A DNA stretch of 28,709 nt, from positions 1-28,709 of IMG/VR virus record IMGVR_UViG_3300030380_003017; one strand, 5' to 3'. The notes below the pieces were generated by a model that was not told where the DNA came from, did no database searches, and saw only the letters and a program-made list of their open reading frames with translations. Position 1 is the stretch's first letter; each line of letters opens with the position of its first letter. Source of the stretch: a virus. A program made the position numbers and the translations under genes. Positions 24,083-28,357 of the stretch are shown here, piece after piece.

Positions 24083-24250
24083 TTAATCACGCCAAAATGA
24101 AACTGTAGGTTTTTTTAGTTTCTCTGCTGTGCATAAATTTTTAATACTTTCTATTAATTTTACATATTGACTAAATGAGCCACCATTATCAACATTATTT
24201 TGTGCGTGTTCTATCATTTGTAAAATGTCTTTTGCTAGTTCGTTATTCAT
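24083..24250 (-). CDS. Small helical protein, unknown
   Basis: A 55-residue ORF beginning MNNELAKDILQMIEHAQNNV. It is amphipathic helical (FSQYVKLIESIKNLCTAEKL) and ends VSFWRD. The leader AAAGGAGTAATAAATG is a variant of the leftward start signal. It overlaps the end of the cytosine methyltransferase gene by 8 bases and is directly followed by the zinc-finger-type ORF. No family was recognised. Confidence 0.65.
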   Translation of the reverse strand: MNNELAKDILQMIEHAQNNVDNGGSFSQYVKLIESIKNLCTAEKLKKPTVSFWRD

Positions 24251-25400
24251 TTATTACTCCTTTAAAAAAATATAAGTGACTTAAAATATGACAAATTACG
24301 TCTACAGTCCAACCATTTCCTAACATTTTGTATTTTTGTGAATTGCTAACTCCATCGCAATAATTATCTGGAACAGTTTGTAATCTACTACATTCTACAG
24401 GGGTTAATTTTCGCCAATAAACATCTTGTGTAGTATCTTTAGTTAAACCTACATTAGTCCGATTTGCAAAAGTAGCTGTTAAAGCATGAGATTTACCTTG
24501 TTCTGCAAAAACTCTATCTTGCATATATGGCTGTTTGCCACCTGCTTTTTTACTAGGATTTATTTGATTAGGTTTTGTTTTATCAATCATAACTTTAGGC
24601 TCTCTATGACCACCACCCATTGTAGTTAATGTTGGTGATTTACCATTTTCTGAATAGACACGTTTTATAATATCATATCCATTTATATCAGTAGCTATAC
24701 CAACTTGTTTAGGTTTACCATCATAATCACAAGCTAAATAATCACCTTGTCTACCATTTTTGACATATTCCATAGCTGATAAATTACTTGCTTTAGGTTT
24801 TGATTCATCAATTAAACATTTATCTTTTTTATTTTTCATTTGTCTATTAACAAATTTATCTGACATTTTTGTTATTTCATTTGGGTTTGTTTCTAATATA
24901 TCTTTTAAAACTATACCTTTGTCTTTAGGTTGTAAAATTCCTGGTATATTAGTCCAATAATATCTTTGTCTGTTTTGTGCTGACACTAAAGCACTATTAA
25001 TAAGTATTGGTTCAACACCTAAATGTTCAGTAATAATATCTAAATATTCTTTTTTCATTCTAACATTTTCGAGTAAAAAGTATTTAGGTTTTAACTCTTT
25101 TAATAATCTTACAAATTCAAAAAACAATTTTGATCGAGGATCATCAAAAGCTAATTGACTTCCTGCAAAACTAAAACCCTGACAAGGTGATCCGCCCATC
25201 AATAAATCTATTTTTGGAAGCTCCGCAGCCTTAATGGCTGTAACATCACCAATATGGATAGTATTAGGATAGTTTTTTTTTGTTATTTGTATTGCATATT
25301 TATCAATTTCAGACGCAAAATATTTATCATACTTTACGCCTAATCTATTTAATGCAATTTGACCGCAAGACATGCCGTCAAATAAAGATAATACATTCAT
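24243..25400 (-). CDS. C5-cytosine DNA methyltransferase
   Basis: A 385-residue, full-length 5-methylcytosine methyltransferase. Motif I LSLFDGMSCG (4-13) binds SAM; motif IV GGSPCQGFSFAG (69-80) holds the catalytic C73; motif VI is ENV (111-113); motif VIII QNRQRYYW (142-149); motif IX RKLTPVECSRLQTVPDNY; motif X YKMLGNGWTVDVI. A variable region of about 170 residues between VIII and IX is the target-recognition domain. No restriction enzyme gene adjoins it, so it is an orphan methylase that could protect phage DNA or reduce host restriction. It lacks the GAGTATA leader; its ATG follows the upstream stop directly. Confidence 0.93.
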   Translation of the reverse strand: MNVLSLFDGMSCGQIALNRLGVKYDKYFASEIDKYAIQITKKNYPNTIHIGDVTAIKAAELPKIDLLMGGSPCQGFSFAGSQLAFDDPRSKLFFEFVRLLKELKPKYFLLENVRMKKEYLDIITEHLGVEPILINSALVSAQNRQRYYWTNIPGILQPKDKGIVLKDILETNPNEITKMSDKFVNRQMKNKKDKCLIDESKPKASNLSAMEYVKNGRQGDYLACDYDGKPKQVGIATDINGYDIIKRVYSENGKSPTLTTMGGGHREPKVMIDKTKPNQINPSKKAGGKQPYMQDRVFAEQGKSHALTATFANRTNVGLTKDTTQDVYWRKLTPVECSRLQTVPDNYCDGVSNSQKYKMLGNGWTVDVICHILSHLYFFKGVINE

Positions 25401-26690: not shown

Positions 26691-26993
26691 TTAAAACGCT
26701 TGTATTATTATTTTATCACAATTATCAACTTCTATTACTGTTGTATGATCTCTTAAATCATCAATAGTTTTTAGATTTAAATTGCTGTAAGCAACTAAAC
26801 ATTCTTTTAAATTGTTATATTCATCATATTCACAACATAAAGCAATCGGATCAAAATTTATTTCTTCTCCCATACTATCCTCTAAATCTTCAAGATAATC
26901 AAATAGAGCTTTTGAGCCTTCATAAGTAAAGTTATTAGGTCTATTTTGTTGGAACCAGTCGCAGAACTGGAATTGTGTAATTGTGTCTTTCAT
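26691..26993 (-). CDS. Acidic phage protein, unknown
   Basis: A 100-residue acidic protein: MKDTITQFQFCDWFQQNRPN (1-20), SKALFDYLEDLEDSMGEEIN, FDPIALCCEYDEYNNLKECL, and a beta end TTVIEVDNCDKIIIQAF. The NRPxNFTxEGxxxLFDYLxxLEDxxGEE...DxIALCCEY arrangement looks like a family of small phage early proteins that I have seen without a function. The strong negative charge invites comparison with DNA-mimic anti-restriction proteins, but this is not shown. Leader AATAGGAGTATAACAATG. Upstream, the first conserved hairpin element separates it from the next gene. Confidence 0.7.
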   Translation of the reverse strand: MKDTITQFQFCDWFQQNRPNNFTYEGSKALFDYLEDLEDSMGEEINFDPIALCCEYDEYNNLKECLVAYSNLNLKTIDDLRDHTTVIEVDNCDKIIIQAF

Positions 26994-27005
26994 TGTTATA
27001 CTCCT
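26972..27005 (-). repeat. Duplicated gene-start segment, copy B
   Basis: This 34-base segment covers the leader AGGAGTATAACAATG and the first codons (K-D-T-I-T-Q) of the 100-residue gene. It matches copy A at 26375-26410 apart from a 2-base deletion and a single substitution. Confidence 0.6.
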
Positions 27006-27013
27006 ATTAAATT

Positions 27014-27078
27014 GATACGTACTTTATTGTCTGTATCTCATACCTAGTAACTAAGTACTAGGTATAAGTTAAAGACTA
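27014..27078 (-). promoter_or_regulatory. Conserved intergenic hairpin element, copy 1
   Basis: Reading the minus strand: the flank AGTCTTTAACTT (27077-27066), then a perfect 10-bp stem ATACCTAGTA/TACTAGGTAT with a 6-base loop (27065-27040), the flank GA, and a possible second stem GATAC/GTATC (27037-27033 with 27018-27014). Copy 2 at 27278-27334 keeps the flanks and the 26-base hairpin length while the stem's inner pairs differ. There is no U-run, so it is not an ordinary terminator. RNA processing, 3'-end protection, attenuation or an operator are possible. Confidence 0.6.
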
Positions 27079-27080
27079 TA

Positions 27081-27251
27081 TTAAATAATCTCATTAGCTT
27101 TATTAATAAGTTTTTCAGTTGCTTCATTAATAGGTAATTGAACTACTTTTTTTGCTAAAGCTGCAAAGTCTTCATCTTCCATTAATAAATTGAAATCACT
27201 ACATGTTTCACCGCTTACAATAGAAGCTATTACATTAAATTTATTATTCAT
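27081..27251 (-). CDS. Small protein of unknown function
   Basis: A 56-residue ORF beginning MNNKFNVIASIVSGETCSDF and ending EKLINKANEII. It is acidic and helical (LLMEDEDFAALAKKVVQLPI). Its leader ACAGAAAGAGTATAGAATG is the best example of the leftward start signal, and it is flanked on both sides by the two copies of the conserved hairpin element. This placement gives good support despite its size. No family was recognised. Confidence 0.65.
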   Translation of the reverse strand: MNNKFNVIASIVSGETCSDFNLLMEDEDFAALAKKVVQLPINEATEKLINKANEII

Positions 27252-27277
27252 TCTATACTCTTTCTGTTATTTGTTTT

Positions 27278-27334
27278 GATACAATCTGTATCTCATACCG
27301 CCAATATAGATTGACGGTATAAGTTAAAGACTAG
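27278..27334 (-). promoter_or_regulatory. Conserved intergenic hairpin element, copy 2
   Basis: On the minus strand the flank AGTCTTTAACTT begins in the stop codon of the 169-residue gene. It is followed by an 11-bp stem with one mismatch, ATACCGTCAAT/ATTGGCGGTAT, and a 4-base loop (27320-27295), the flank GA, and a second stem GATAC/GTATC with a 5-base loop (27292-27278). Stem pairs differ from copy 1 but pairing is kept, which points to selection on structure. Confidence 0.6.
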
Positions 27335-27840
27335 TTTTTGTGTAGTATTTTAAAACCCTCTTTTAAAGGCAATTCATTTATTATAATTGCATTAGGAAAT
27401 TTATTATCATTTTTTAAAACATGGTCTTTTATTTTGTCATAAGGAACTTTTTTTAAATTCCAATAAGTATAAGTGTCATCACCTAATAAGTCATGACATA
27501 TTATAAATTCTCTTTTAAGTTGTCTCTCAAATGATTTTAACTCTTTATTTGCAAAGTATTCATTAATTGCTTTATCAATAAATAACTCTAATGAGAAATC
27601 TTCCTGTAAATGATCTTCCTCATCAATTTCTTTTTTAATGTTAGGAAATGAATTGTAAATAAATTTGTTTACTTTCTCTAAATACTTAAAAGATACATCA
27701 TAATCATTATCTCCACCTTGTCCTTGATTTTTAACATAGATTGCTTTTTTGCCATCAATGTAAATAAAACAATTGAAGCAATTAGTTTCCTCACTCATGC
27801 TTTCATATACTTTTAATGATTTAATCTCTATTTTATTCAT
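27331..27840 (-). CDS. Conserved-looking phage protein, unknown
   Basis: A 169-residue protein beginning MNKIEIKSLKVYESMSEETN. The first 50 residues form a beta domain (CFNCFIYIDGKKAIYVKNQG followed by QGGDNDYDVSF), and the rest is helical and charged (NEYFANKELKSFERQLKREF; ICHDLLGDDTYTYWNLKKVP). The KSLKVYES.S.ET.CF...IYIDGKK....NQG.GG.NDY arrangement is one I associate with phage early regions, with no known function. Leader ACAGAAAGAGCATAAAATG, one base off the usual signal. The stop codon lies inside the second hairpin element. Confidence 0.7.
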   Translation of the reverse strand: MNKIEIKSLKVYESMSEETNCFNCFIYIDGKKAIYVKNQGQGGDNDYDVSFKYLEKVNKFIYNSFPNIKKEIDEEDHLQEDFSLELFIDKAINEYFANKELKSFERQLKREFIICHDLLGDDTYTYWNLKKVPYDKIKDHVLKNDNKFPNAIIINELPLKEGFKILHKN

Positions 27841-27841
27841 T

Positions 27842-27994
27842 TTATGCTCTTTCTGTTATTTTATTATAATAATTTACTATGTTGTTAAGTGTTTCCATAA
27901 CTTGAACACTATCGATTTTGTTCCCTTGATATTGATTTAAAACATCTTGTAAATCATGCTCAAGACTTTTATTAAATTCTTCTATTAATTTCAT
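27842..27994 (-). CDS. Small helical protein, first gene of the leftward early-type operon
   Basis: A 50-residue ORF beginning MKLIEEFNKSLEHDLQDVLN and ending NKITERA. It is all helical. Its leader ACAGAAAAGAGTATAGAAATG fits the leftward start signal. The last codons (ITERA) encode, in DNA, the leader of the next gene, so the two are tightly coupled. It is the most upstream convincing gene of this leftward block, next to the 590-base control region. No family was recognised. Confidence 0.6.
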   Translation of the reverse strand: MKLIEEFNKSLEHDLQDVLNQYQGNKIDSVQVMETLNNIVNYYNKITERA

Positions 27995-28357
27995 TCTATA
28001 CTCTTTTCTGTTATTATTTTAATTATGTAATTTATCTAATAATAATATGGCACAAATAAGGCATAGATTCCATGTACATATTATATATGTAATGATAATT
28101 AATCTTTATTGGTGAGCTGTTCTCTTTCTGTTCTTTATTCCAGGTATTTTTCCCCGAAACACTAGAGAATTAACCCTTTGAATGTATTCCCTGTGTATTC
28201 TTCTCATATAAGAGAGTAATAAGATATTATAGAGATAATCTACAAGCCATTACATAAGGTCATAGTTATGATTAGATTAGGTCGTATTGTGTAACTTTAC
28301 GTCAACAATTCCAAAATACATAAATCAAATAATATAATTGGTACAATAATTAAAATC

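Follow-up and report, generated by a model that had tools for sequence, protein, structure and literature searches.

The window analysed here, a virus record of 28,709 bases, contains a minus-strand operon of small genes that runs from about position 27,994 downwards, and a repeated element lies in two gaps of this operon (27330-27252 and 27080-26994). Copy A (27331-27278, minus strand) begins at the TAG stop codon (27331-27333) of an upstream 169-aa gene without a family match (27331-27840), while copy B (27076-27014, minus strand) begins 3 nt past the TAA of the 56-aa gene (27081-27251) that separates the two copies. A Shine-Dalgarno-like AAAGAG (27258-27263) follows copy A ahead of the start codon at 27251. 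Copy B is followed by the Shine-Dalgarno sequence AGGAG (27001-27005) and by the start codon at 26993 of a 100-aa gene of the phrog_9974 family (26691-26993), which has no assigned function. All of these features are on the minus strand. A sigma70-like promoter match where the copy A gap ends on its 3' side was weak (9/12) and no better than chance. Upstream of the operon, which we infer to be early-expressed, a non-coding leader with the sequence GGGAATACATTCAAAGGGTTAATTCTCTAGTGTTTCGGGGAAAAATACC (28100-28290, minus strand) is strongly conserved in two related records (G005, L053; G009, L057) and is probably an early promoter or control region.

The original prediction had described two intergenic hairpin copies with repeated flanks, located at or just after a stop codon, in which the stem had changed while its pairing was kept. 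All of this agrees with our findings. Both flanking words match exactly twice in the window on the minus strand, TCTTTAACTTATACC at 27316-27330 and 27061-27075 and GGTATGAGATACAG at 27286-27299 and 27031-27044. The inner 16 nt are wholly unlike between the copies (GTCAATCTATATTGGC and TAGTACTTAGTTACTA), yet they are paired in both. The single mismatch assigned to the longer stem, however, is in fact a G-U wobble, and the 26-base hairpin, although present, does not mark the extent of the element, since pairing continues outwards on both sides, into GTCT.TA.C at the left and into GATACAGA at the right. The complete main hairpin of copy A (27284-27331, minus strand) can be written as GTCT.TA.CTTATACCGTCAAT / ATTGGCGGTATGAG.TA.AGAT, with 20 pairs in 22 positions, two 1x1 mismatches and a 4-nt loop, and it is backed by covariation; that of copy B (27029-27076, minus strand) is GTCT.TA.CTTATACCTAGTA / TACTAGGTATGAG.TA.AGAC, with 21 positions and a 6-nt loop. 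Folded in isolation, the two 47-nt hairpins reach -20.0 and -18.8 kcal/mol, corresponding to z = -6.4 and -4.6 against shuffled sequences. The conserved 5' flank of copy A, TCTTTAAC (27323-27330, minus strand), contains a boxA-like core and varies in three of the related copies (L054, L057, L020).

The element as a whole is a structured RNA of about 55-85 nt, consisting of the main hairpin and, behind it, the small stem GATAC/GTATC (the second stem). In copy A this stem (27278-27292, minus strand) is formed by GATAC at 27292-27288 and GTATC at 27282-27278 around a 5-nt loop; in copy B (27014-27037, minus strand) it is formed by GATAC at 27037-27033 and GTATC at 27018-27014 around the 14-nt loop AGACAATAAAGTAC. 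The hairpin base has this same GATAC as its 3' side, so the hairpin and the second stem cannot both be complete. The two compete for GATAC in every copy, and the mutually exclusive folds lie at most 3.4 kcal/mol apart in all 23 copies folded. An intrinsic terminator, with a G+C-rich stem and a U run, was excluded because there is no U run, and none was reported by the terminator scan. A pseudoknot between CUUUA and UAAAG was dropped as well, as UAAAG is missing in several copies and altered in others.

To collect relatives of the element, 2.9 million viral contigs were scanned with patterns, and a protein scan as well as a covariance model derived from 13 copies were used in addition. Further copies exist in related phages, so that their absence, named in advance as a refutation, does not apply: 24 occurrences with 22 distinct sequences were found in 20 virus records including the window, with one or two copies per record and never more than two. 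The pair of copies in the window is present unchanged in one of these records (G001, L007). In all 22 distinct copies the helix comprises 20-23 positions including mismatches, or about two turns, with two 1x1 mismatches near the hairpin base. The loop is constrained neither in length (3-24 nt) nor in sequence, loops of 20-24 nt being found in one pair of relatives, and the upper stem occurs in many forms. The variants CTTATACC/GGTATGAG, CTTATTCC/GGAATGAG and CTTATATT/AATATGAG of the stem base were found among the relatives.

Selection on base pairing is demonstrated at the level of the alignment, in agreement with the original prediction that selection acts on structure. In the alignment of 13 distinct sequences, 98.3% of the cells pair and eight stem pairs have changes on both sides. 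The covariation score of this alignment is 0.403 compared with 0.119 ± 0.023 in shuffles, none of 500 shuffles reaches it, and all slid versions of the alignment collapse. When all 22 distinct sequences are aligned, the helix is scored over 19 positions and pairing is kept in 413 of 417 cells. The copies can thus not be put down to recent duplication without covariation, which had been named as a possible origin. The second stem, originally proposed as a mere possibility, is likewise real by the measure of two different compensatory changes: GATAT/ATATC (C-G to U-A), found in six occurrences with five distinct sequences between them, and, in a single copy, GATGC/GCATC (A-U to G-C). The hairpin base, GTCT.TA.C / G.TA.AGAY, is near-invariant and therefore, in the aligned copies, its pairing is backed by one-sided changes only. 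Most changes in the base are at mismatch positions or keep the pairing (G-C to G-U, U-A to U-G and C-G to U-G); the exceptions are a one-base deletion in the copy L020 and, at the U-G pair, three changes from G to U.

Counted from the element start, the upstream stop codon falls within -22 to +6 in all 24 copies, in many as a TAG exactly at the start and in several as a TAA within TCTTTAA. For 23 copies a downstream ORF was called; its start codon is at +79 to +104, or at +79 to +87 if the two copies with long loops are set aside. Most of the space from the upstream stop to the following Shine-Dalgarno sequence is taken up by the element. The genes on its upstream side belong to at least 16 families and those on its downstream side to at least 14 (BLAST E 1e-4). 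The 169-aa gene, for example, is followed by copy A in the window and by another element in L020, a gene ending in AEQRKSL is followed by three different elements, and an identical element is found with different genes. A phrog_9974 protein or a relative of it stands behind different elements in six records, which makes this the most frequent gene family in that position. With so many gene families on either side at a near-fixed distance, the element is an interchangeable intergenic RNA module, and in the records compared it has the character of a modular connector that can be exchanged between gene pairs.

Parts of the element are also reassorted among each other, since the GTCAACTTG stem is combined with GATAC in L018 and with GATAT in L216, L222 and L225. 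L006 has neither the 56-aa gene nor copy B, and the neighbouring genes are joined with copy A. The junction is located at the GAGTATA ribosome-binding block before the start codon and not at the hairpin; at this one junction seen, gene gain or loss at a core site in the hairpin, as in integron attC sites, was not found. Near-copies of the ribosome-binding block, AATAACAGAAAGAGTATAGAATG, are present before three operon genes in the window (27247-27280, 27836-27869 and 27990-28023), and the L006 junction is this same block. The conserved flanks of the element may be recombination joints.

Outside these viral records the element was not found in any of the collections searched. It is absent from eight named Pelagibacter phages, and blastn against named phages gave no copy and merely short partial matches. 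A pattern search of 695 genomes (297 of the SAR11 order and a draw of 398 from the Pseudomonadota) returned no copy, nor did a stricter pattern run on 84,980 species genomes. The few pattern matches in the named phages and bacterial genomes lack the paired stem. Individual candidates were rejected: a 29-bit match in SAR11 (L233) is AT-rich and lacks the motif, and the pattern matches L031-L034, L037 and L039 have neither a paired upper stem nor the conserved flanks. In Rfam 15, there were no matches over the gathering cut-off in the window and six relatives, and matches below the cut-off were at chance level. The element is therefore, as far as the compared sequences allow us to say, an RNA family new to description and absent from Rfam, which is in line with the earlier view of it as undescribed.

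The host of these phages is likely SAR11, judging from protein similarities. In G001, the record that carries the sequence of the window, the terminase is 50.6% identical to that of Pelagibacter phage HTVC106P, and the portal protein of G007 is 63% identical to those of the HTVC010P group of pelagiphages. From these two similarities it follows that at least two phage groups possess the element. G001 has 73,595 bases (L072, L073), about twice the size of related records of 37 kb, and seemingly contains two sets of structural genes, so that it is possibly a concatemer or a joint assembly. The window also encodes a C-5 cytosine DNA methyltransferase (24243-25400) with up to about 60% identity in aligned segments to the T7-like pelagiphages HTVC309P and HTVC134P; the phage of the window belongs to a different group.

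The original prediction of a "regulatory RNA or processing element" was right as a class. Within this class, we tentatively favour as the most likely mechanism, by analogy, that the element works as an RNase III-type hairpin for mRNA processing. This reading is based on the length-constant helix, the free loop and the placement of the element. A constant helix of 20-23 positions with loops of 3-24 nt fits recognition by measured helix length, with loop and sequence left free. As at T7-type RNase III sites, the helix of about two turns with a free loop is found in 22 of 22 distinct copies, and the element stands in operon gaps, after a stop codon in 24 of 24 copies and before a called downstream start in 23, early expression of these operons being an assumption. 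Each of the three SAR11 genomes examined for it has an RNase III gene (TIGR02191 over cut-off), SAR11 being the presumed host. We hypothesize that the two-turn helix would be recognised and cleaved by the RNase III of the host, so that the early message would be split into units. The upstream product would retain a 3' end derived from the hairpin, and the downstream product could fold GATAC/GTATC as a 5'-terminal hairpin ahead of its ribosome-binding site, while the conserved flanks might double as homologous joints for the exchange of small-gene cassettes. The element probably cuts or controls the shared message. Since RNase III needs little sequence and helix length alone leaves the invariance unexplained, the near-invariant UCUUUAAC and GAGAUACAGA suggest a further reader of the element.

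A wider reading, which we consider possible but doubtful, sees the element as a portable, bistable intergenic RNA adapter whose reader would be the terminating ribosome and/or a nuclease or protein, and which would also serve as a recombination joint where uncultured marine phages insert small early genes. If this were true, the element would represent a new class of operon connector and not a copy of the T7 sites.

An operator function is unlikely. An RNA-binding protein of phage or host would here read the mismatched base UCU-U-UA-A-CUU / GAG-A-UA-C-AGA and thereby affect translation or stability of the next gene. In its favour, conservation is concentrated at the irregular helix base and the AGA, and the upper stem is free. 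The at least 14 unrelated downstream genes argue against a gene-specific repressor.

We give translational coupling a similarly low probability. In this scenario the terminating ribosome would block pairing of UCUUU with the Shine-Dalgarno sequence; otherwise the second stem together with this pairing would shut the downstream gene. Coupled gene pairs with hairpins and wide spacing are known, such as f1 VII-IX and rpmI-rplT (PMC12548453). The element offers the two exclusive folds of similar energy, of which the second-stem fold accompanies the UCUUU:SD pairing, and UCUUU adjoins the stop codon. The Shine-Dalgarno pairing itself is, however, not conserved, with probabilities ranging from 0.01 to 0.99. 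Sequestration of the Shine-Dalgarno sequence was dropped after a swap test, in which the mean probability with the own ribosome-binding site, 0.41, was little higher than with swapped ones, 0.31.

Antitermination of the nut type was at first the leading idea and now appears rather improbable. Here UCUUUAAC would be a boxA bound by NusB/NusE, the hairpin would take the place of boxB, and RNA polymerase would receive an antitermination complex near the beginning of the early operon. The motif is located directly 5' of the hairpin and at the stop codon, and in several records the operon's first small ORF precedes it; in phage lambda, nutR lies just after cro. The core TCTTTAA is the same as in the gammaproteobacterial boxA consensus GYTCTTTAANA (PMC5725501), but the consensus positions G1, Y2 and A11 are unmatched. 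Three copies deviate within the motif (TCTATAAC, TCTTTAAT and TCTTTAC), nearly all copies allow the motif bases to form pairs within the hairpin base, and the hairpin loops vary in length and sequence, unlike boxB. Moreover, TCTTTAAC is present in none of 64 SAR11 16S leaders, SAR11 again standing for the presumed host; these leaders have a variable hairpin and then TTAGCTATTTAAA. The idea lost its leading place on comparison with the consensus and with the SAR11 leaders. The leaders themselves, with a variable hairpin (e.g. TTGAGC....GCTCAA) followed by the conserved TTAGCTATTTAAA 5' of AAGAAGAGAAGTGTGGACGG, look like a SAR11 boxB-boxA arrangement.

A purely DNA-level role as recombination joint or selfish palindrome (MITE, REP or attC-like), which would profit from the exchange between gene pairs, the reassorted upper and second stems and the loss of one gene plus element in L006, is very improbable, as the element is always on the coding strand in the stop-to-start gap with at most two copies per record, the L006 junction lies at the GAGTATA block off the hairpin, and none was found in the bacterial genomes searched.

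The phages in which this covarying RNA family, missing from Rfam, occurs have relatives among the most abundant in the sea, and little is known of their gene control, which makes the family of interest. As the element sits between many different genes at a near-fixed distance, it could serve as a ready marker by which early operons and cassette exchange are recognised in uncultured phages. A simple hypothesis for its action is RNase III-type processing or a refolding that depends on the ribosome.

Several known systems resemble the element in part. The coupling hairpins of f1 VII-IX and rpmI-rplT resemble it in that the stop codon is followed by a structured gap, with the start codon tens of nucleotides further on; in the element, sequestration of the Shine-Dalgarno sequence is unconserved. 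Lambdoid nut sites and the boxA-boxB of rRNA operons likewise have a TCTTTAA core beside a hairpin, a stop codon and a position early in the operon, whereas in the element the outer boxA positions are unmatched, the motif is paired in the hairpin base, the loop is unconserved, and the motif is absent from SAR11 rRNA leaders. The PeSL elements of T4-type phages, reportedly described by Arbiol and co-workers in 2010 as mobile regulatory cassettes of an early promoter plus stem-loop, are also repeated intergenic stem-loops common to unrelated small early genes, at places of gene shuffling. In contrast to PeSL, no promoter is recognised in the element, which lies inside operons after a stop codon, occurs in other phages with another sequence and has a stem that was strongly rewritten by compensatory changes.

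The T7 early message is cut at five hairpin sites of this kind (PMC4858673). When we folded the early intergenic stretches of T7, irregular stems were obtained, and the R0.5 hairpin starts at the gene 0.4 stop codon, the R1 hairpin at that of gene 0.7. Directly after the gene 0.7 stop, in the R1 site before gene 1 (V01146, 3095-3175; L237), T7 has TAGTCTTATCTTA, close to TAGTCTTTAACTTA of the element; this likeness was noticed post hoc, carries no weight and may be chance. Like the element, the T7 sites R0.3, R0.5, R1, R1.1 and R1.3 are irregular hairpins in gaps of the early message, reaching from the stop codon to the next ribosome-binding site. The comparison concerns folds and placement and not homology. 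The mismatch pattern and the base sequence differ. Unlike the T7 sites, the element has a far more variable loop and stem, occurs in uncultured marine phages, and is a site at which cutting is only predicted. The element is probably a new variety of an already known type of site.
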